Assembly: GCA_003161435.1 (NCBI GenBank)
Contig: PMOS01000012.1
Coordinates: 248,001 to 312,000 of the forward strand
DNA from: Vulcanimicrobiota bacterium
Lineage (GTDB): Bacteria > Vulcanimicrobiota > Vulcanimicrobiia > Vulcanimicrobiales > Vulcanimicrobiaceae
Direction of reading: 5' to 3'
DNA length: 64,000 bases
Below are positions 52,655 to 63,604 of this stretch, piece by piece (positions within the stretch are counted from its first letter, which is position 1; every line of letters begins with the position of its first letter). The notes under the pieces are model-generated. The model searched no databases. It was not told the origin of the DNA and worked only from the letters and a program-made list of their open reading frames with translations. A program made the translations under genes and the position numbers.

Positions 52655-53866
52655 TCAACCACAACCGCTCGCGGTCGCGCCCGCACCGGCGGCCTGCGCG
52701 ACACGGCGCCGAACCAACGGAGGGGCGGCGGATTCCACCAAGTCGCAGGTCGCGGCGATCCCGTCGACCCGGCGGCACCGATCGGCCAGGTCCTTACAAC
52801 GCCGCGCCACACCTGACGAACCGAGGAGCGGCTGCAGCTTCGCTGCCACGGCTGAACCGCTTACGTCAGCCGGTGCGAGCCAATCACCGACGCCGAGTTG
52901 CTTCATGCGCGCCGCGTTGTCCGGCTGATCCAGACAGAACGGCGTCGCCAACTGCGGGACGCCGCTGGCCAGGCCGACGCCGACGCTGCCTATGCCGCCG
53001 TGGTGGACGAGTGCTGCGCAACGCGGCAGGATGCTCGTCAGCGGAGCGAACCGCGCAGCGTGCATCGATGACGGGAGGTCGGGCGGCGTATCTCGGAGGT
53101 TCAGCAGAAGGCCGCGTCGTCCGAGGGACGCACACGCCTCCACGGCGGCCCGCACGAACGCGTGCTGATCGGCATCCGTCCCGAGCTCCACCGGCGGACC
53201 AGGTCGGAAGACGATCGGTGGGGAGCCCGCAGCGATAAACGCATCGACGTGGGCCGGCACGGGCTCGATCGTGTCGAAGAGCGGAAACCCCGTGACTCGT
53301 ACGCACTCGGGCCAGTCCGGCTCAGCCGGCGCGAACCAGGCCGGGAAAAGCGCGACGGTGAGGAGTGGTGAGAAACTCCATCCCATGCTCACCGGCAACC
53401 GCGGCGATCCAAGCTGCGGGACGAGCATCTCGGGATCTGCCACGTACTCGTCGGCGAAGCGGAAACCCATCGGCGAGCCGACGACCGTCACGGTGGGCAC
53501 TTGGCGCCGTTCGCGCAAGAACGGCGATGCCAGGTCGAGGTAATGCGCGACGACGACGGTGCGGGCCGGCTCGATCGTTCGCTCGAGCAGATCGTACAGT
53601 TCGGGTGCGAGGCCGGTGCAGCATGCGGCAACTTCCGGCCATGCTTCCTGCGCATCCCAGATGGCCGGATTCGCGCTGAGGCATTCCAGGTATTCCTTTT
53701 CCGGACCGACTTGGACGAAGTCGAGGCCCGCCCCGCGCACGTAATCGGCGAACGGCGCGTGCGTGATCAGCGTGACGTCGTGTCCGCGCGCCTGCAGCCC
53801 GGCGCCCAAACCGATGAAGGGAAAAACGTCGCCTCGCGTGCCGATCGCGGTAAGAACGCATTTCAT
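52655..53866 (-). CDS. GT1-family glycosyltransferase (MGT/UGT-like)
   Basis: 403 residues from ATG 53866. N-terminal TAIGTRGDVFPFIGLGAGLQ (acceptor-side Rossmann domain) and C-terminal ALVHHGGIGSVGVGLASGVP with FCLDQPDNAARM, the donor-sugar-binding signature. Transfers a sugar from UDP/dTDP donors to lipid or polyketide-type acceptors. ATGA overlap with the P450 stop couples it to P450 and the acyl-ACP reductase-like enzyme. Confidence 0.9.
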   Translation of the reverse strand: MKCVLTAIGTRGDVFPFIGLGAGLQARGHDVTLITHAPFADYVRGAGLDFVQVGPEKEYLECLSANPAIWDAQEAWPEVAACCTGLAPELYDLLERTIEPARTVVVAHYLDLASPFLRERRQVPTVTVVGSPMGFRFADEYVADPEMLVPQLGSPRLPVSMGWSFSPLLTVALFPAWFAPAEPDWPECVRVTGFPLFDTIEPVPAHVDAFIAAGSPPIVFRPGPPVELGTDADQHAFVRAAVEACASLGRRGLLLNLRDTPPDLPSSMHAARFAPLTSILPRCAALVHHGGIGSVGVGLASGVPQLATPFCLDQPDNAARMKQLGVGDWLAPADVSGSAVAAKLQPLLGSSGVARRCKDLADRCRRVDGIAATCDLVESAAPPLVRRRVAQAAGAGATASGCG

Positions 53867-55185
53867 CGAAACGCCTCTTCGGCGGGCCGCACGCGAACGC
53901 GAATTCCATCCGCGAGGCACTGCACGACCCCCTCCATCTCGACGACGTCTTGGCCGGGGATGGGCGTAAGGCGGTAGCGGCGCCGAACGTGCGCGACCAA
54001 AGCCTTGACTTCCATCTGCGCGAAGTGGAAACCGAGGCACATCCGCGGCCCGCCGCCGAACGTCAGCAGGGCGAACGGATGGCGCTTGTGTTCCTCGCGC
54101 GGCGGCGCAAAACGGGTGGGGTCGAACGTGTCGGGGTCCGCGAATATCGTCGACAGCCGATGACCCGCGGCAACCGCCAGAAACGCCGGCGTCCCGGCCG
54201 CTACAGAGTAGCCTTCGAACTCGAAGTCCGCGACCACCCCGCGCGGCAAGAACATGACGGGCGGATGCAATCGCCCGGCTTCGCGAATGACGTTCGTCAG
54301 TGCGGGCGAGCCGCGGACCGCGTCGCGGTCGGCGGACGCACCCAATGCCGCCGCCAGCTCGTCGTCCACCTGTCGCCCGAATTGCGGATGGATGGCGAGC
54401 AGGTAGAGCACCCATGCCGCAAGGTTCGTCGTCGTCTCGTGACCCGCCACGAGAAGGATGTTGACGTGGGCGAGAATCTGCTCATCCGACAGCGCGTTGC
54501 CGCCCTCATCCCGGGCACGCGCCAGCATGTCGACCACGCTGCGGGCCGGACGTTCGCGGGAGGCCCGGCGGCTGGCCGCGATCAGTTCCAGCAGATGACC
54601 CTCTAACGCTTGGTGCTCGTCGCCGAACCCGCGCAACAGCGCGTAGAAGCGGTCGCGCATGAGGTCCACGTCCGCGCCCATCTGCAAACCCAGCAGCGCC
54701 GCCGCGGCGACGTCGAACGCGATCGCCCTCGCTTCCTCGGCCAGATCGATCTCACCGCGCGCCGCCCACGAGCGCGTGCGCGCTTCGATCACGTTTCGGG
54801 TGACCGGCAAATACCGGTCGACGCATTCCGCCGTGAACGCCGGGCTCATCATCGCGCGGTGGCGCGGATGCTCGGGCCCGTCCATGTTCGCAAGCCCCTT
54901 GCCGAGTGCTTCGCCCAAGACCGGCGTCCAGCCGAGGTCGTTGCTGAAGTGCTCTCGGTGCGTCAGCAAAACGAATCGGCTCGCCTCCGGCCCCACGAAA
55001 TACACGACGTCCGAGCCGGCAAGCGGACCCGAGTCCGGAACCACGCGGAAGATCGGTCCGTGATCGAGCGCAATCTGCGCCATCAACGGCGCGAGCCGGC
55101 CCGTCCCCAAGATGTCGTCGGGGATGGAAACCTGCGGCGGCCGGGCCGGTGCACGCGTCGTGATCGCGATGTCCGAGAGTCTCAT
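53863..55185 (-). CDS. Cytochrome P450
   Basis: 440 residues, soluble bacterial type. I-helix oxygen motif LVAGHETTTN, ExxR in IREAGRLHPP, and heme loop LTFGGGPRMCLGFHFA with the cysteine ligand. Hydroxylates a hydrophobic substrate with electrons from an external ferredoxin. No ferredoxin gene is adjacent. Coupled by ATGA to both neighbours, so its substrate is probably made by the reductase upstream and glycosylated by the enzyme downstream. Confidence 0.94.
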   Translation of the reverse strand: MRLSDIAITTRAPARPPQVSIPDDILGTGRLAPLMAQIALDHGPIFRVVPDSGPLAGSDVVYFVGPEASRFVLLTHREHFSNDLGWTPVLGEALGKGLANMDGPEHPRHRAMMSPAFTAECVDRYLPVTRNVIEARTRSWAARGEIDLAEEARAIAFDVAAAALLGLQMGADVDLMRDRFYALLRGFGDEHQALEGHLLELIAASRRASRERPARSVVDMLARARDEGGNALSDEQILAHVNILLVAGHETTTNLAAWVLYLLAIHPQFGRQVDDELAAALGASADRDAVRGSPALTNVIREAGRLHPPVMFLPRGVVADFEFEGYSVAAGTPAFLAVAAGHRLSTIFADPDTFDPTRFAPPREEHKRHPFALLTFGGGPRMCLGFHFAQMEVKALVAHVRRRYRLTPIPGQDVVEMEGVVQCLADGIRVRVRPAEEAFR

Positions 55186-56240
55186 GACCCTGCGGCCACA
55201 AGCTGCGGCGCCAATCCTTGCGGGCGCGTGATGTCGAGCGCCATGGGAGCGACGCCATGTTTACGCGCGAGACGTTCGAGATGGAGCGCGAACTCCGCGC
55301 CCGGGCGCCCGACCGAGTGCTCGCGGATGCCCTCACGCGCGAACAGATAGGTTTCCGCCATGCACGCGAAAGCGCCGCGCGCCGGCATGTTCATCTCGTA
55401 GCTGCAACGGTAACCGGGAATTTCCACGATCCCACCCTGCACGACGTCGATGCCGCGCCGCCGGAAAGCCCCTCGGTGCTCGGGCGCGATGTTGAGCGGC
55501 TGGGCGACGTCGATGACGATCGCACCCGCCGAAACCATCTCGGGAACAAGTTTAGCCGACGGGTCGCTGGTCAGAAGCAGAACGATCTCCGCACCGCGCA
55601 CCGCGGCCAGATCTCCCGCGAACGTGGCTCGGTCGGCGAGCGAGCCCAGCAGAGTCCGGGCGCGACTGGCGCTGCGACCCACCAACAGCAGGTCGAAACC
55701 CGCGTCGGCCAAGAGCTTGGAGGTCGCCACACCGACGGACCCTGTGCAGCCGACCACGGCGACACGGCACGTCGGAGGTGTGTGCTGCAGGATTGCGCAC
55801 GCTTCCACAACGTTGTGTTTCGCAACCGCGGCCGTATACGCGTTGCCGTTGGTCACCGTCACGCTCGGGGGGAGCTCGTCGAGCAGCAGCGCTCCGCCGC
55901 CCGTGGCAGGGGAAGCCAGTGCGCCCAAGCCGAGCACCCTCGTGCCGCGCTGCGCGGACATTTGCGCTGCGGCGATGACTGCGCGCTGGCCCGCCCGCGA
56001 CATGATATCGCGCGGCAGGCACATCGCGACGACGAGCTCGCCCCGAACGGCGTTGCTCCCGACCGCTACTTCGCCGACGACGAGCGGCGGCAGCGAGCAG
56101 GATTTACGCTGGAAGTCTTCCTCGCCCTCGCTGTACTCGCGCAGAACGGAACCCACGCCGGCGAGCATCAGATCGCTCGGATCGCGAGGGTGCACCAGAA
56201 ACGTGAACCACGGTGCGCGAGCCGTTAGATAGGGCAGCAT
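55182..56240 (-). CDS. Acyl-ACP reductase (AAR)-like oxidoreductase
   Basis: 352 residues, close to the 340 of cyanobacterial AAR. Shared features: TNGNAYTAAVAKHNVVEA near 130-147, NAD(P) loop VAVVGCTGSVG at 160-170, VVQGGIVEIPG at 266-276, and NMPARGAFACMAETYLF with C293 at the position of the catalytic thioester cysteine. AAR reduces fatty acyl-ACP to fatty aldehyde. I infer an aldehyde-forming role here. First gene of a coupled operon with P450 and glycosyltransferase. About 215 bp upstream hold any promoter. Confidence 0.75.
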   Translation of the reverse strand: MLPYLTARAPWFTFLVHPRDPSDLMLAGVGSVLREYSEGEEDFQRKSCSLPPLVVGEVAVGSNAVRGELVVAMCLPRDIMSRAGQRAVIAAAQMSAQRGTRVLGLGALASPATGGGALLLDELPPSVTVTNGNAYTAAVAKHNVVEACAILQHTPPTCRVAVVGCTGSVGVATSKLLADAGFDLLLVGRSASRARTLLGSLADRATFAGDLAAVRGAEIVLLLTSDPSAKLVPEMVSAGAIVIDVAQPLNIAPEHRGAFRRRGIDVVQGGIVEIPGYRCSYEMNMPARGAFACMAETYLFAREGIREHSVGRPGAEFALHLERLARKHGVAPMALDITRPQGLAPQLVAAGS

Positions 56241-56276: not shown

Positions 56277-56897
56277 TCAACTCGACGCTAGGAGCGGGAC
56301 CAGCAGCATCGTCCCCTGGAAATCGACGTTTACGCAGCCGCCGCCCAAGTGCTCAGGCCAGTTGATGAGAAACGTCGTATCGAAGACGACGGCTGCCGAC
56401 ACACCTTGTGCCAAGACGGACAGGCTGTCTCCAAGACCGGAGACAATGCGGCCGTCTCAACCGCCTGTCGCGCCGGCCCACACGGAGCCGGGCAAGAAGT
56501 CCAGGCACCCCAGAGCGTGCCACCCGGAACGATCCGCCGTCAGCGTACACTCATCCGTGGCGACGATGCGAACGGGATAGAATAGCGTTGGGTCATGGCT
56601 TCCAGATCTGACGAGATCGTAAAGTCCGGGAAACACCGCTTGTACGGCGTAGCGCACTTTGAGCTTACCGCCGCAATCAGCGCGTTCGGTGTAGTCGATG
56701 ACTCCGATGTTGCCGTCGCCGCTCGCCTCAGGGTCGATCGTCACGCAGATCTGACCGGAGTCGATGGACTGCTTCTTGCTGAGCGGCATCCGCACGCTCT
56801 CGCGCGAGAGCCCGTACAGAGCCTTCACGCTGAACATCACGCGCTCAACCGGTTCTTGGCTTTTGCGCCGGCCGGCGATCGCTTCCATCGACAACAT
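56277..56897 (-). CDS. Candidate new selenoprotein (one in-frame TGA at 56457-56459)
   Basis: From ATG 56897 the frame runs 146 codons, meets TGA at 56459-56457, and then continues in the same frame for another 59 sense codons to TGA at 56279-56277. Both sides have protein-like composition, and the second part (VLAQGVSAAVVFDTTFLINW, GGGCVNVDFQG) is not Arg-rich like local shadows. Directly after the internal TGA the RNA can form a SECIS-like hairpin. selD in the same locus uses a Sec codon. Read through, the product has 206 residues with Sec at 147 (TGGUDGR). No family recognised; no signal peptide. A nonsense-disrupted gene is the alternative. Confidence 0.6.
56426..56459 (-). promoter_or_regulatory. 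SECIS-like element after the internal TGA
   Basis: Eleven nt after the TGA the minus strand has TGTCTCC (56445-56439), loop GGTCTT (56438-56433) and GGAGACA (56432-56426), a perfect 7-bp stem with a 6-nt loop. The loop starts 18 nt after TGA, within the bacterial range. The E. coli fdhF SECIS has loop AGGUCU, a similar distance, and ACGGCC just after UGA, as here. Confidence 0.6.
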
Positions 56898-57038: not shown

Positions 57039-57362
57039 TTAGCCGTAACGATCCAGTTTTTCGATCCGGTTCGACGACGCGACGAGCGCCGCGACTTTTT
57101 CGGATGGAAAAACCTTGATCCCAAACCCTGCGTCCGCGCATCCGGCTTCAAGGTTATGGGCCGCAAACGTCTGAGCGCAGCGTTCGGTGAGATGCGGTTT
57201 GTCGCTGAGACAGCCGCTGACGCTCGCACACTCGATCACCTTTCTCAGACAGCTGGCGAGGAGTGCACCGTTGAACTGAATCTCTTTGGTGCCGGCGAAT
57301 ACGATCGACCATGCGTGGGTCGAAACTGGCTCTTCCGACGCGCTAATTGCGAAGCTGGCCAC
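57039..57362 (-). CDS. Hypothetical protein
   Basis: 107 residues from GTG 57362, chosen because GGAGG lies 5 nt upstream; the frame itself opens at TTG 57416. Mixed alpha/beta composition with five cysteines (SCLRKVIECASVSGCLSDK, LTERCAQ, LEAGCAD). No family recognised. It lies between lysR and the candidate selenoprotein on the same strand and may belong to the selenium locus. Confidence 0.6.
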   Translation of the reverse strand: MASFAISASEEPVSTHAWSIVFAGTKEIQFNGALLASCLRKVIECASVSGCLSDKPHLTERCAQTFAAHNLEAGCADAGFGIKVFPSEKVAALVASSNRIEKLDRYG

Positions 57363-57426
57363 GATCACCTCCGACTGGGAGGACTCTAGAAAACCGCATC
57401 CCGGCGCGTTTGTCAAGGTACACGAA

Positions 57427-58326
57427 TCAAGGAGCGTCGAAAACGAACGAACGAAACTGATCGGCTAGGCGATTTTGCGTCCCTTGAACGCGGCTGAGGT
57501 AGAACGTGCGCTCGCAAGACCAGCGTCGCACGCGGACCGGCGCGAGGTAACCGTCGGCGACGCTGCGTTGAATGGCGCGCCCGGACAGAATGCCGATGCC
57601 GAGGCCGGCCTCGACGAGCTGGATCACGGCTTCGTTCGTCGACACGCTCATGAGGTGCACCGGTGTGACGCCGAGCACCGCCAAGGCGCGCAGCCCGTGT
57701 GCGCGGGTTGCGGAGTCCGGCTCGCGGACGACGAACGTCGCTTCGCGCAGCCGGTCGAGGCGCACGACGCGACGGTCGTAGCGCGAACCGGCGACCACGA
57801 ACAGTACGATCTGTTCCGTGAGGATCGGTTCGCAGACGACTCCGGCGAGCTCGGGGCGTTCGCCGACGACGGCAATGTCGACCAGTCCGTTCGTGAGACG
57901 CTTGAGAGTCGTCCGCGAATTCGCGATCCAGAGGCGCACGTCGACGCGCGGGTGTGCCGCATGGAACCGTGCGAGCCATACAGGCGCGTAATATTCGCCC
58001 GGAGTGGTGCTCGCGCCGACGTTCAACGTCCCGGCTCGACCGGAGTCGACGTCCGCGATCTCCGCTAGCAAGGCCCGCTTGAGAGCGTGCTTGCGATGAG
58101 CGTACGCGAGGACGGCGTCGCCGATCGTCGTCGGCCGGAGGCCCTCACGCGTCCGGGTGAAAAGCGCCGCACCCAGCGCGCGCTCCGCCGCTCGAACTTG
58201 CGCCGTGACGGCTGGCTGACTCAGGCCAAGCGCCGTCGCCGCGGCTGTGATTCCGCCGTGCTCCGCGATGGAGACGACGAGCGCGAATTGATGTTCCGAG
58301 GGGAAGGCCGACCCGTCACTTCCCAT
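57427..58326 (-). CDS. LysR-type transcriptional regulator
   Basis: 299 residues from ATG 58326. N-terminal winged helix (HGGITAAATALGLSQPAVTA), linker helix, and a substrate-binding domain with TLNVGASTTPGEYYAPVWLA, the CbbR/CysB-like opening. Divergent from the encapsulin gene, so it likely controls the encapsulin-rhodanese-selD operon in the usual LysR manner. The effector may be a sulfur or selenium compound, which is inference. Confidence 0.92.
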   Translation of the reverse strand: MGSDGSAFPSEHQFALVVSIAEHGGITAAATALGLSQPAVTAQVRAAERALGAALFTRTREGLRPTTIGDAVLAYAHRKHALKRALLAEIADVDSGRAGTLNVGASTTPGEYYAPVWLARFHAAHPRVDVRLWIANSRTTLKRLTNGLVDIAVVGERPELAGVVCEPILTEQIVLFVVAGSRYDRRVVRLDRLREATFVVREPDSATRAHGLRALAVLGVTPVHLMSVSTNEAVIQLVEAGLGIGILSGRAIQRSVADGYLAPVRVRRWSCERTFYLSRVQGTQNRLADQFRSFVFDAP

Positions 58327-58362
58327 ACACTGCACCCTATGAACCCGACTGGAAAATTGTAT

Positions 58363-58391
58363 TTGACGTTATGGCAGAGGACGCCTATGGT
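58363..58391 (+). promoter_or_regulatory. Candidate promoter of the encapsulin operon
   Basis: TTGACG (58363-58368), 17-bp spacer, TATGGT (58386-58391). It lies about 95 bp before the encapsulin ATG, inside the 159-bp lysR/encapsulin divergent region. Confidence 0.5.
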
Positions 58392-58485
58392 GAGGTGGTA
58401 CGAATTGTGGCCTTCGCTGCAACCGCGCAGATCGAGAGGCCGCCGAGCACGTCCGTGCCCCGGTTCGCTTTTCAGGAGATCTTGC

Positions 58486-59469
58486 ATGGAACGAGGCCGC
58501 CTTGACGAGCCCACGGAGTTGAATGCCCTCACGAGCGAGGGCGCGCGAGTTCTCTCCAACCCGACGTTATCGCCGCCGATCTGGTCTCCGCGCTCGCCAC
58601 GCTGGCTCCTCCAGTGCCTCGGAGCTTGTGACGGATACGTCATGGTCCAGGGTGGCGCATATCGAGTGAACAAGGTCGCGGACGATTCCTTCGGCGTGAG
58701 CGTTACGCCCGAGGGTGATCGTTCGAATCTGTCGAGCGCGACGTTTGGTGTGAGCCACTCGCATTCCGAACTCCAGGCGGTTCAGGCGAGCTACGCCCGC
58801 TACGAAAGTACGCCGCGAGAGATCCGCTTGGAGCCGATACAGTCGGTCGTAAAGATAAGCACGCGAGTACCTCAGCTTTACTCGAACAATCACGATCAGC
58901 TGAAATTGCAGCTTGCGCTCACCGCGGAATTCATCTACGAGACGAAGGAGAACCTCTGCTTCAACCATCCGGAGTACGGGCTGCTCAACAACGTTCATTC
59001 GGATATGAAAGTGCGTGCTTCCGGCCCGCCGACGCCCGACGTTTTGGACGACCTGCTCGCCCGCGTCTGGAAGCGGCCGGACATGTTCGTACTCCATCCC
59101 CAGGCGCTGGCTGAGTTCCGAAAGCAAGCCACCGCGAACTCGATCACGCTGGACGAGGTCCGGATGTTCGGGTCGTCCTTCAGTTGCTTCCGCTGCGTGC
59201 CGCTGGTGCCGTCGAACAAGCTCGGACTCTCCAGCGGGGCCGGCGGGTCACAAGTGACGGACGTGCTGCTGATGCGGCTCGGTCTGGAAAAGCAAGGCGT
59301 GATCTGCCTGTGCCAGGACGGCCTTAAAGCAAGTCCGATGCTGCCGTACATTACGGTTGAAGAGATGCGAACGGACGATAACTCCGTGGCGAACTATTTG
59401 TTGACGACGTACTGCGCCATGGCGGTTCTTTCGCCGGGGGCGCTCGCGAGCGCCGAGGTTTCCGTCTGA
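58486..59469 (+). CDS. Family 2A encapsulin shell protein (SrpI-like)
   Basis: 327 residues with AGGAG 7 nt before the ATG. The sequence runs SPRWLLQCLGACDGYVMVQG, GGAYRVNKV, then YSNNHDQLKLQLALTAEFIY and KENLCFNHPEYGLLNNV, WKRPDMFVLHPQALAEF and SSFSCFRCVPLVPSNKLG, the order and wording of SrpI/MMP-I family 2A encapsulins with the HK97 fold. There is no inserted cNMP-binding domain, so not family 2B. It should self-assemble into a protein nanocompartment. Family 2A shells usually load a cysteine desulfurase; here the partner is a rhodanese, joined by TGATG. Confidence 0.9.
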   Translation: MERGRLDEPTELNALTSEGARVLSNPTLSPPIWSPRSPRWLLQCLGACDGYVMVQGGAYRVNKVADDSFGVSVTPEGDRSNLSSATFGVSHSHSELQAVQASYARYESTPREIRLEPIQSVVKISTRVPQLYSNNHDQLKLQLALTAEFIYETKENLCFNHPEYGLLNNVHSDMKVRASGPPTPDVLDDLLARVWKRPDMFVLHPQALAEFRKQATANSITLDEVRMFGSSFSCFRCVPLVPSNKLGLSSGAGGSQVTDVLLMRLGLEKQGVICLCQDGLKASPMLPYITVEEMRTDDNSVANYLLTTYCAMAVLSPGALASAEVSV

Positions 59470-60461
59470 TGGAACTGCGCGGACGGGTGGAAATGCTCGC
59501 CGACGCATTGCCGGATCTGCGTTTTCTTCTCGAAGAGGCCGCGAACACGCCGGTCGAGCGCCCAGGCGGCTCTTCCGCGTCGACGGCTCCTGTAACGTTC
59601 GCTGCGCAGGCGACGACGGATCGAACTCCGGTCGCCATCGAGCCGATCCTGACCGCGTTGGCCGGCTCCCTAGCGTCACCCGGCGTGCAACTGCTGCTTG
59701 GCGCGCTCGCCGGATTGAGCGGAGGCGCGCCGTCGCAGTTGCTTCAGTTCGCACCCGGCGTCTACGAGGCGACGCTGAACGAGGCGAACCAGCAGACCGG
59801 CGAAGTGAGCACGGGGGAACTGCGCCGCATCCTCAACGACAAGAGCGCTGTCGTGTTCGACGCCCGCACCGCTTTGGAATATGCCATCGGACATATTCCG
59901 GGCGCGCTGAACACCGCGCCGAAGCCCGGCACGCCCATGTCGCAGTACGTGAGCGACGCAGCCGAGATCGCGCGCATCGTCCCGAATCAGCGTGCGGCGA
60001 TCGTCGTGTATTGCAACGGACCGTTCTGCGGAAAGAGCAGGCGCCTGGGCGAGGCGCTGGTGCAGGCAGGGTACTCCAACGTTCGGCGTTATCAGCTCGG
60101 AACGCCGATGTGGCGCGCGCTGATCGGACCGATGGTGATCGAAGCGGCCGGTTGCCGGTATGTCCTCGAGCAGGACCGCACCGCCGCGTTTCTCGACGCT
60201 CGCACGCCGCAGGAGTTCGCGATCGGCAGTCTTTCGGCGGCGCAAAACGTACCCGTGAGCGACGTGATCAGAGCCAAAGACGACGGCCGGCTGCCGATGG
60301 ACGACTTCAACACGCGCGTGATCGCGTTCGGCGCCGACGGCGCGCAAGCGAAAGCGCTTGCCGAAGCCCTCGCGCACAACGGTTTCGTCAACGTGAAATA
60401 CTGCGACGACACGTTCTCGGGGCTTCTCACGAACCTGCGAGGTCTTGCTGGTGCCTGGTAG
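59469..60461 (+). CDS. Tandem rhodanese protein, probable encapsulin cargo
   Basis: 330 residues. Residues 1-30 form a Leu-rich helix, followed to about 100 by a Ser/Ala/Pro/Gly-rich flexible stretch, like cargo-loading regions of family 2 encapsulin cargo. Rhodanese domain 1 (about 112-217) has VVFDARTALEYAIGHIPGAL and catalytic loop YCNGPFCGKS (C182). Domain 2 (about 222-325) has FLDARTPQEFAIGSL but its loop reads FGADGAQAKA with no cysteine, so it is inactive. Transfers sulfane sulfur or possibly selenium. ATG overlaps the shell stop; its end overlaps selD by 11 bp. Confidence 0.85.
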   Translation: MELRGRVEMLADALPDLRFLLEEAANTPVERPGGSSASTAPVTFAAQATTDRTPVAIEPILTALAGSLASPGVQLLLGALAGLSGGAPSQLLQFAPGVYEATLNEANQQTGEVSTGELRRILNDKSAVVFDARTALEYAIGHIPGALNTAPKPGTPMSQYVSDAAEIARIVPNQRAAIVVYCNGPFCGKSRRLGEALVQAGYSNVRRYQLGTPMWRALIGPMVIEAAGCRYVLEQDRTAAFLDARTPQEFAIGSLSAAQNVPVSDVIRAKDDGRLPMDDFNTRVIAFGADGAQAKALAEALAHNGFVNVKYCDDTFSGLLTNLRGLAGAW

Positions 60462-61515
60462 CGTCGATATCGGGTCATCGGACGCCATCAAGCTGACGCA
60501 ATTCTCGCACGGAGCAGGTTGAGCGTGTAAGCTCGGCTCGGCCGAGCTGGCGCAGGTCCTGCGCTTTCTGGCCCCGATCACGGACCCGAACGTGCTGGTC
60601 GGAACGGCGACCAAGGACGATGCCGCCGTCTATCGCCTTTCGTCAACGCAGGCGATCGTCTCGACGCTCGACTACTTCACGCCGATCGTCGACGACCCGT
60701 ACGCGTTCGGCGCCATTGCAGCAGCGAACGCGCTCAGCGATGTCTACGCGATGGGCGCGCGCCCTCTTTTCGCGCTCAACATCGTCGGATTTCCGCGCGA
60801 TACGGTCCCCCTCTCCGTGCTCGGAGAGATCCTCCGGGGCGGATCCGAGAAGGTCGCGGAAGCCGAGATCTTCGTCGTCGGGGGACATAGTATCGACGAC
60901 GCCGAGATGAAATACGGCATGGCCGTAACGGGGATCGTTCACCCGGACCGGATCATCCGGAATGTGGGCGCTCGCCCGGGCGATCAACTCTTCCTGACCA
61001 AGCCGGTCGGTACCGGGATCGTGAGCACCGCGATCAAACGGGGTATCGCCACCGCGAGCGATGTCGACGAAGCTGTCGGCGTCATGGCGGCGCTCAACAA
61101 AGGGGCGGCTGACGCGATGTTGGAGGTCGGCGTGCACGCGGCGACCGACGTAACGGGATTCGGCCTCCTGGGCCACTTGGCCGAGATGACCACGGGCAGC
61201 GGCGTCGGTGCGCGCGTTCGGGCTTCCGCCGTGCCGCTGTTGTCATCGGCGCACGCCTTGGCCCGCCAAGACGTCTTGCCGGGCGGCACGCGGCGCAACC
61301 AGACAGCCATCGAGCCGATGGTGCGATGGGACGAACGCGTCGAAACCGCCTTACGAGTTCTGCTCTGCGATGCGCAAACGTCGGGCGGCATGCTGATCGC
61401 GGTCGCGCCCGACCGCGCAGACGCACTGGAAGAGGCGCTGCGGGCCCACGGTACGCGCGAGGCGGCGCGGATCGGCGAAATCGTCGCCGAAGAGACGCTC
61501 GATGTCGTGCCGTAA
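60451..61515 (+). CDS. selD: Selenide, water dikinase SelD, itself a selenoprotein (TGA at 60520-60522)
   Basis: 354 residues from GTG 60451, with GAGG 8 nt upstream. Reads KLTQFSHGAG, TGA, ACKLG: the TGA (codon 24) takes the place of the catalytic Cys17 of E. coli SelD (GAGCGCK), with the essential lysine three residues on. Downstream are TKDDAAVYRL, IVSTLDYFTPIVDDPYAFG, GGHSIDDAE, TDVTGFGLLGHLAEM and LLCDAQTSGG, all family signatures. It makes selenophosphate for Sec tRNA and selenouridine. A caller stopping at TGA would begin at 60592 and lose the active site. Confidence 0.93.
60520..60548 (+). promoter_or_regulatory. Sec codon and SECIS-like hairpin in selD
   Basis: TGA at 60520-60522 is followed, 7 nt on, by AGCTCGGC (60530-60537), loop TCG, and GCCGAGCT (60541-60548), a perfect 8-bp stem. 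The distance to the loop (about 15 nt) is at the short end for bacterial SECIS elements; an alternative pairing leaves a CTCGG loop. Confidence 0.6.
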
Positions 61516-61550: not shown

Positions 61551-62750
61551 TTACATGAAGTTGCGCGTATGCAGCCCGGAGAGTTCCATCGCCTCTCGTT
61601 GGTCGAAGCCGAGGCGCGCCAGGCGTTTTTGACGGCCCTCGTCCATGTCGCGAGTCAACTGCATCACACGCTGGAATCCACGCCGGATGGCCGCGTGTTC
61701 CCAAGAGCCGGCAGCGAGGATGATGAGCGCGTCGAATACCTCGGCATTGAGCCCCGCCGTGTGCCGAAGAGCGTCGCTGCGGCGCCGTACGCCGGCGGCA
61801 AGGCGTGACCGCGCGGCCGGGTTTCGCTCGAGATGTTCGCCGATGTGGGCGAGCCCGAACGCAACGTGACGCGCTTCGTCCTGAGCCGCAAACCGCGCCA
61901 CCGCTGCGGTGATCGGATCCGAAGCGTGCATTTCGATGAAGCGCAAGAGGTTGAGGAACGTGCCTTCGCCCAGGACGGAGAGCAGGAAGGACGCGACTGC
62001 GTAGTCGGGTTCCTCGATGAGCGTCTTCAGCGAGGCTTGTCCGCCGGAGGTCGACAAGCCGAGCTTGTCGCGCTTCAGCAGCGCGCGCCGCGTGAAAATC
62101 TCGATGTGTCGTGCTTCGTCGGCCGCCTGTAAGGCCAGAACCTGCATCACCTCGCGAAAGTGGGGGTGGAGTTGCGCGATGAACCGGCTCGGCACCATGA
62201 GGGCCGCGGTTTCGTTCTCGATCAAGTACGTCATGATCTGGACGATCGCGTCCTCGACGTCGTCCGGGACGTCGCATGGAGCGTCCCAAGGGATCGCAGT
62301 TTGAGGATCCCATTGCGCAGCCGCTCCCTGAGCATAGAATCGCGGCGCTTGTGCCGACCACACTTCGGTCTTGTCTACGAGCGTGAAGCCGTATTCGGGC
62401 GCGCCCACCTCGACCGTTGCACCACGTGCGGCCAGACCCCACGTCCGCGGCGGCTGTTCGACGACCGCCGCCGGCTCCGAGCCGCGCGCCCCTCCGCAGC
62501 TCTCGGCGCCGGCCCACCGATCGCTCTCCGCAGCGCTGCGGATGATCGCCGCGGAAGCATCGCCGCCGCGCCCCGACTCGAGACGGAAGGCGCTTCCCTC
62601 GGATCGGCACCAAACGCGGAGATGCGTGAACAGCTCGGGAGCATTTCCGGTGACGTGCATCTCCTCGCCGAGCGAAAGCTGACGAGACGCCCGCTTGACC
62701 AGCAGATGAGCGCCTTCGTCAAAGCCTAGGTCGCCAAGATCTAGGCGCAT
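61551..62750 (-). CDS. Ferritin-like di-iron protein with N-terminal degenerate TusA-like domain
   Basis: 399 residues from ATG 62750. Residues 1-57 (LDLGDLGFDEGAHLLVKR, TGNAPELFTHLRVWCRSEG) match TusA/YedF in pattern, but the CPxP active site is replaced by FDEG. After a low-complexity linker, residues about 160-399 form a ferritin-like four-helix bundle with YLIENETAAL and two EARH motifs (ADEARHIEIF, QDEARHVAFG), a di-iron site. It may oxidise or store metal or a substrate. Overlaps the PhnD-like stop by 10 bp; convergent to selD. Confidence 0.75.
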   Translation of the reverse strand: MRLDLGDLGFDEGAHLLVKRASRQLSLGEEMHVTGNAPELFTHLRVWCRSEGSAFRLESGRGGDASAAIIRSAAESDRWAGAESCGGARGSEPAAVVEQPPRTWGLAARGATVEVGAPEYGFTLVDKTEVWSAQAPRFYAQGAAAQWDPQTAIPWDAPCDVPDDVEDAIVQIMTYLIENETAALMVPSRFIAQLHPHFREVMQVLALQAADEARHIEIFTRRALLKRDKLGLSTSGGQASLKTLIEEPDYAVASFLLSVLGEGTFLNLLRFIEMHASDPITAAVARFAAQDEARHVAFGLAHIGEHLERNPAARSRLAAGVRRRSDALRHTAGLNAEVFDALIILAAGSWEHAAIRRGFQRVMQLTRDMDEGRQKRLARLGFDQREAMELSGLHTRNFM

Positions 62751-63604
62751 GTTCGCGCAGACGCGAAGAGTACGAACTCGTCGACGGTGCCGAAGCGGTC
62801 CAATGCGGCGCTGAGCGCACCGTATCCCGCGGTGCGGCCCGGCATCCACCGTTTCAGTCCTTCCATGTCGAGAAGCGGGCGAACGTCCGGATCTGAATAC
62901 GACATTGCGAGGAGCAACTCGCGAAAACGCTGAACGGATCCGGCCGGCGCGCCGTCGAGGACGGTGAAGTTGCAGTGATCGTACGCCGGCGTGTGCGCCA
63001 GAACGCGGGTACTGCCCGACGGCAGCGTCGCTTCTTGCGCGAACAACAAGACGTTGCTGTCGATCATGCACGCGGCATCGACATCGCCTCGGAGCAGCGC
63101 ACGAGCCGCTTCGCGCTCGCCGCCGATGTGGTCACCGTGCTTGCCGACCAGCAGGTCGAAGTACCGGACCTCGAAGTCTCGGCCGGGGATCAGCCCGCCG
63201 TCGGCGATAAAGTCGAGCGGGATTAGGGTCGCTTGCGGCGAGTCATGCGCACCGACGGCGACGCGTTTACCCTTCAGATCGGCGACCTTCTGCAGTTCTC
63301 CATCGGAGCGGACCAGGATCGCCGAGGTGAGATCCCGGTCGGTGTCTCGCATGCAGACAGCCTCCACGCGCCGGCCGAGCGCGGCGGCGATTCTTTCTGC
63401 TTGGAGCCACGCCAGCGGTGAGTTCCACGCGATGTCGATCTGACCGGCGAAGTGCGCCTCGACCTGACGTTCGTAGTTCGTGAAGAGCACATAATCGAAG
63501 GCCAGACCGTTACGCTCGAAATAGCTCTGAAAGCCGTCCCAGATCGCAACGACTTTCGGGTCGTAGGCGACAGCGCCGAGCACGAAGGCGCCTCGTTCGC
63601 GCAT
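62741..63604 (-). CDS. PhnD-like substrate-binding protein lacking a signal peptide
   Basis: 287 residues. The type II periplasmic-binding fold of the PhnD/PtxB group: LGAVAYDPKVVAIWDGF, FAGQIDIAWNSPLAW, LKGKRVAVGAHDSPQATLIP and VDAACMIDSNVLLF. Binds oxyanions such as phosphonate, phosphite or, conceivably, selenite-type compounds. The N-terminus has no export signal, so it may be cytoplasmic or part of a sensing step. It overlaps the ferritin-like gene and starts 10 bp after the dehydrogenase stop. Confidence 0.8.
   Translation of the reverse strand: MRERGAFVLGAVAYDPKVVAIWDGFQSYFERNGLAFDYVLFTNYERQVEAHFAGQIDIAWNSPLAWLQAERIAAALGRRVEAVCMRDTDRDLTSAILVRSDGELQKVADLKGKRVAVGAHDSPQATLIPLDFIADGGLIPGRDFEVRYFDLLVGKHGDHIGGEREAARALLRGDVDAACMIDSNVLLFAQEATLPSGSTRVLAHTPAYDHCNFTVLDGAPAGSVQRFRELLLAMSYSDPDVRPLLDMEGLKRWMPGRTAGYGALSAALDRFGTVDEFVLFASARTCA

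Follow-up and report, generated by a model that had tools for sequence, protein, structure and literature searches.

A putative selenoprotein of an undescribed family encoded beside an acyl-ACP-reductase-like gene

Introduction

In selenoproteins of the E. coli FdhF/FdnG/FdoG type, the UGA codon is followed by a hairpin whose loop starts 18-19 nt further on and has G-U near the loop start, and SelB and tRNA-Sec are present. The locus described here is similar in these respects, SelB and tRNA-Sec being found in the genome that carries its homologue. Unlike in those systems, the encoded protein is not related to formate dehydrogenase, and the read-through protein had no match to any sequence or model in Pfam, NCBIfam, PHROG or PDB. 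The hairpin may also resemble the fdhF element in detail.

Hypothetical selenoprotein families without a known domain have been described, including DG, DW and DF from deep-Sep (PMC12013277) as well as GOS_B and GOS_C, and were inventoried recently (PMC13188914, 2026). The family reported here shares with them a conserved UGA, a SECIS-like hairpin and the lack of any known domain, but their NCBIfam models (NF049953, NF041197, NF049942, NF041374 and NF045500) do not match its protein. The deep-Sep families have cysteine (Cys) homologues in many organisms (PMC12013277), whereas none was found for this family. The rules for bacterial SECIS (bSECIS) elements are a loop of 3-9 nt, a stem of 4-16 bp, a distance of 16-37 nt from the UGA, a G within the first two loop positions and an energy of -7.5 kcal/mol or lower (PMC13188914).

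Here we analysed a 64-kb stretch of DNA with 67% GC, referred to as the window, and conclude with high confidence that the gene at 56277-56897 encodes a 206-residue selenoprotein of an undescribed family, in which UGA codon 147 stands for selenocysteine (Sec).

Results

The minus strand of the window carries a frame of 206 codons (56897-56280) with a single in-frame TGA, after which 59 codons remain open in the same frame up to the terminal TGA. The frame, its coordinates, the single TGA and the 59 further codons given in the initial annotation were all reproduced from the sequence. The features of the gene are as follows.

56277..56897, minus strand: putative selenoprotein gene, 206 codons (Sec147) plus terminal TGA, based on frame and translation, homologue, codon usage and dN/dS
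56457..56459, minus strand: in-frame UGA, codon 147, context GG-UGA-GAC, inferred to be read as Sec; the TGA is kept in the homologue (L079:4068-4070)
56277..56279, minus strand: terminal stop TGA; the end of the homologue differs by one codon (..PLLAS*)

In the 59 codons after the TGA, codon usage resembled that of the host. The stretch scored +0.31 bits per codon, which places it at the 27th percentile among true coding windows and at the 97.6th among off-frame windows. Among the six frames, only the 206-codon frame was consistently coding-like in codon usage across the region, and it was so on either side of the TGA.

Phage, plasmid and viral-contig sequences gave no match to the read-through protein. 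A search of 198 related genomes gave no homologue apart from one spurious match (G052, E=2e-4), which was rejected; its alignment leads from the antisense strand of a TetR-like gene through a TAA to the beginning of a membrane protein that is unrelated, and the homologue described below did not match it either. The direct GTDB scan with the read-through protein also gave nothing, because the scan requires exact peptide words; as it missed the homologue too, this negative has little meaning. The homologue was located when GTDB genomes were scanned with the protein of the neighbouring acyl-ACP-reductase-like (AAR-like) gene as query, in a locus of an uncultured 'Acidobacteria' metagenome-assembled genome (MAG), here called L079.

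The L079 homologue (L079:3627-4244) is 54% identical to the read-through protein in a full-length alignment across the TGA, and its codon aligned with codon 147 of the window gene is also TGA; the shared stop codon is TGA in both genes, never TAA or TAG. Amino-acid identity was 54% before the TGA (141 residues) and 57% after it (58 residues), while the third codon positions agreed at only 45-47%, near saturation. The dN/dS was 0.33 before the TGA (bootstrap 0.18-0.53) and 0.30 after it (bootstrap 0.11-0.64), and the pieces after the TGA matched each other on their own at E=6e-26. C51, C117, C131, H101, H127 and H183 are invariant between the two proteins, and the motif around Sec147 is GCLDFLPGSxWxGAxGG-U-DGRI, C131 lying 16 residues upstream of Sec. 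The comparison shows that purifying selection acts at the protein level on the frame after the UGA in both of these divergent bacteria, and that both keep the UGA at this position. In each lineage, protein synthesis must on this evidence run on beyond the UGA without a change of frame. Given the identity, the dN/dS values, the match of the pieces after the TGA and the shared TGA, chance, decay and sequencing error are not reasonable explanations. The family consists of these two members only, both from MAGs, and no deep alignment is available. According to the initial annotation, the reading would be refuted if all homologues ended at residue 146 or aligned a random residue with the TGA, and homologues with Cys or TGA at residue 147 were to be sought. 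The sole homologue found continues beyond the TGA and has TGA at the aligned codon, and the proposal of an undescribed selenoprotein gains its support from it. Cys homologues were found neither in about 200 genomes of the wider group of the host, viral contigs, phages and plasmids, nor in some 790 genome draws around the genome of the L079 homologue.

The RNA following the UGA was compared between the two genes. In the window, the leader GACGGCCGCAT stands directly after the TGA and is followed by the hairpin UUGUCUCCG-GUCU-UGGAGACAG.

56446..56456, minus strand: the 11 nt directly after the UGA (GACGGCCGCAU), the same in the window and L079 genes, third codon positions included
56425..56446, minus strand: SECIS-like hairpin of 7-9 bp, apical loop GUCU/GGUCUU, the loop 18-19 nt after the UGA

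In its 7-bp form the window hairpin has the stem UGUCUCC/GGAGACA and the loop GGUCUU 18 nt after the UGA, and in its 9-bp form the loop GUCU at 19 nt. The leader, the 7-bp stem and the position of the GGUCUU loop are thus as initially annotated. The fold energy was -11.3 kcal/mol (z = -3.7), stronger than that of 99.7% of synonymous recodings (P = 0.003 against amino-acid-preserving recoding), and the hairpin satisfies all four bSECIS rules (PMC13188914), energy included. The L079 hairpin has 6 bp and, 19 nt after the UGA, the loop GUU; it reached P = 0.06 against amino-acid-preserving recoding and z = -0.3 in a longer context. Its energy was -6.4 kcal/mol when the bare stem was taken, -7.5 with nt 9-34 and -8.9 with nt 1-35, which is borderline against the limit of -7.5. 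The bSECIS geometry, i.e., loop, stem, G position and distance, is satisfied in both genes alike. A core of 4 bp and a 6-nt loop is common to the two hairpins at the same position; the loop is GGUCUU in the window and AGUUUG in L079, and both have G-U at nt 20-21 after the TGA. No SECIS family of Rfam matched either locus, and a Pyrobac-1 match of 20.7 bits, far under threshold, was taken as chance. The hairpins of the selD genes of the clade have loops nearer to the UGA and no close resemblance to the window hairpin, and as a template they neither support nor exclude it.

How much such a hairpin is worth alone was estimated within the window. Sixty-seven frames of at least 100 codons run into a TGA and are then open for 50 or more further codons, and 12 frames meet the full set of criteria (at least 100 codons, a TGA, at least 50 further open codons and a bSECIS-like hairpin). 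A hairpin obeying the bSECIS rules also lies downstream of 18% of all TGA stops in this GC-rich window. Since 12 frames meet similar criteria, the combination of frame, TGA and hairpin is weak evidence by itself, not above chance, and is significant only together with the homologue. The hairpin on which the initial annotation had relied is therefore real, but it is weaker evidence than was presented; the selenoprotein reading holds despite this because the homologue is independent evidence.

SelB (288 bits against a cut-off of 242) and tRNA-Sec (69 bits against a cut-off of 47) are both present in the genome of the L079 homologue. In the host MAG, which is 83% complete, selA, selB and a convincing selC were not found. 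A tRNA-Sec match of 47.7 bits, just over the threshold, was not accepted as selC, because sister genomes show a similar match beside the true one (73-77 bits). TypA, an otherwise common GTPase, was not found among the host GTPases, which were identified by eye. In a genome of the same genus (G001), a stretch of about 30 kb holds the tRNA-Sec gene together with those of TypA, SelB and SelA. SelB was over the cut-off in eight of ten genomes of the genus of the host, tRNA-Sec reached at least 73 bits in eight of ten, and most relatives carry both selB and tRNA-Sec. The simplest reading is that the lack of selA, selB and selC is likely an assembly gap, because the MAG is incomplete and TypA, clustered with these genes in the sister genome, is missing as well. 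The window itself carries a further gene with an in-frame TGA.

60451..61515, plus strand: selD with its own in-frame Sec-TGA (60520-60522), which shows that the host genome carries a Sec-encoding gene

This TGA sits in the active-site motif GAG-U-ACK and confirms the Sec-encoded selD noted at the same locus by the initial annotation, from which it was inferred that the host is likely to decode Sec. The inference is favoured by the Sec-type selD and by the relatives with selB and tRNA-Sec, but remains incomplete, as selA, selB and selC are unseen in the host MAG. The absence of selB and selC had been named as grounds for refutation; they are indeed absent from the assembly, yet the assembly is incomplete and lacks TypA too, and the relatives are mostly positive. 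A second host selD, of the Cys type, is located on another contig (G000:C35:142471-143355), and most sampled relatives have a Sec-type selD.

The putative selenoprotein gene is followed on the same strand by two genes.

55182..56240, minus strand: AAR-like gene, 36 nt downstream of the putative selenoprotein gene; the L079 counterpart is 52% identical
53863..55185, minus strand: cytochrome P450, overlapping the stop of the AAR-like gene, probably of the same operon

A macrolide-type glycosyltransferase gene comes after the P450. The AAR-like protein aligns with TIGR04058 over most of its length (67.4 bits, curated cut-off 449.7 bits) and with NF053554, the PigE N-terminal reductase, over residues 78-335 (98 bits, cut-off 850), yet stays far under both cut-offs, and is named AAR-like only. 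In L079 the homologue lies upstream of the reductase-like gene with an FeoB-like gene between them, and the AAR-like gene is the only gene besides the selenoprotein gene common to both neighbourhoods. The FeoB-like GTPase/transporter (L079 4311-7101), in the operon of the homologue, is not among the common genes. Against the 52% identity to its L079 counterpart, the AAR-like protein reached mostly about 30%, and at most 39%, with proteins of its own clade among the matches listed. Judging from this much closer relationship to L079, the selenoprotein and AAR-like pair appears to travel as a unit.

Several other genes adjoin the locus. A selenium-flavoured cluster lies at 57427-61515. It includes a LysR regulator that, within NCBIfam, matches the model for LysR proteins of selenium metabolism best (182 bits against a cut-off of 250). 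Three further members stand in line on the plus strand: the genes for an SrpI-like type 2 encapsulin shell protein and for a rhodanese protein whose N-terminal extension is long, and the Sec-type selD. An encapsulin next to rhodanese and selD suggests a compartment for selenium or sulfur; nothing relevant combining encapsulin, rhodanese and selenium was found in the open-licence literature. A small cysteine-rich ORF (57039-57416, minus strand), flanked by the genes of the LysR regulator and the putative selenoprotein, has GGAGG ahead of GTG as a possible start and no Pfam match. A ferritin-like/AurF-like diiron protein (weak match) is encoded at 61551-63071 on the minus strand, convergent with selD.

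Discussion

The points that count against a selenoprotein are that the family has two members only, that the host MAG did not show selA, selB and selC, that the L079 hairpin is weak, that the selD hairpins of the clade have no close resemblance to that of the window, and that the searches gave no Cys homologue, whereas selenoproteins usually have one. An ordinary stop, by which the protein would end at residue 146 and the later frame and hairpin would be chance products of GC-rich DNA, agrees with the 12 window loci fulfilling the same criteria and with the first scans of relatives and GTDB, which gave no homologue; it is very improbable, since the divergent homologue shares the TGA codon and, after it, shows 57% identity, E=6e-26 and dN/dS of 0.30. 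That the TGA at codon 147 marks a pseudogene, a recent nonsense mutation or a sequencing error deserves even less credit. The coding-like codon usage on either side of the TGA would fit it, as would the origin of the sequence from a single-genome MAG, but an independent MAG in which the gene is only 54% identical has TGA at the same codon, and two genes would not have a defect of this kind in common when selection continues on either side of it.

Programmed UGA readthrough without Sec, in which Trp or another residue is inserted by near-cognate decoding to give a C-terminally extended minor product, is unlikely. In its favour, the sequence conserved beyond the TGA is proof that translation crosses it but does not tell which residue is inserted, and the L079 hairpin is modest. 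Opposed to this are the Sec machinery in the L079 genome and in the relatives of the host, the Sec-type selD of the host, the bSECIS-conforming hairpin at the right distance, the use of TGA rather than TAA or TAG in both genes, and the equal identity before and after it. That the inserted residue is selenocysteine, and that the hairpin is a SelB-binding element, are inferred; incorporation of selenium is unproven.

If the gene encodes a selenoprotein as proposed, the ribosome would read UGA 147 as Sec delivered by SelB and tRNA-Sec, which would recognise the hairpin. This begins 11-12 nt after the UGA and has GU at the start of its loop, 20-21 nt after the UGA. Sec147 would be the reactive residue, possibly together with the invariant C51, C117 or C131. 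More speculatively, the adjacent AAR-like enzyme may have the selenoprotein as its redox or nucleophilic partner. AlphaFold2 gave no usable fold model (pLDDT 35 with the two-row alignment, 30 with the single sequence), and because the structure could not be modelled, the functional proposal rests on the gene neighbourhood alone. A specialised lipid or secondary-metabolite pathway is suggested because the pair in the window stands in a probable operon with the P450 and the glycosyltransferase, and partnership with the reductase in such a pathway is only a tentative possibility. Also tentative is the wider idea of a Sec-only selenoenzyme family which moves between phyla with a dedicated acyl-thioester-reductase-like partner, employs Sec147 in one step of such a pathway and carries out an undescribed selenium-dependent reaction. 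The open-licence literature held nothing relevant on acyl-ACP reductase with selenocysteine. We conclude that this is a new, rare selenoprotein family without an NCBIfam model (release 20.0, June 2026), although a prior description is not fully excluded.

Our results also carry a warning for hairpin-based selenoprotein prediction. With a dozen such frames per 64 kb and nearly one in five TGA stops of the window carrying a bSECIS-rule hairpin, it is unsafe to rely on SECIS-like hairpins alone where GC content is high, and finding a homologue through a neighbouring gene can settle selenoprotein cases where hairpins cannot. With neither a known Cys homologue nor a domain, this family would probably be missed by selenoprotein pipelines. 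The finding enlarges the selenoproteome of two lineages that are poorly represented in culture and raises the question of what chemistry requires Sec beside an AAR-like enzyme.
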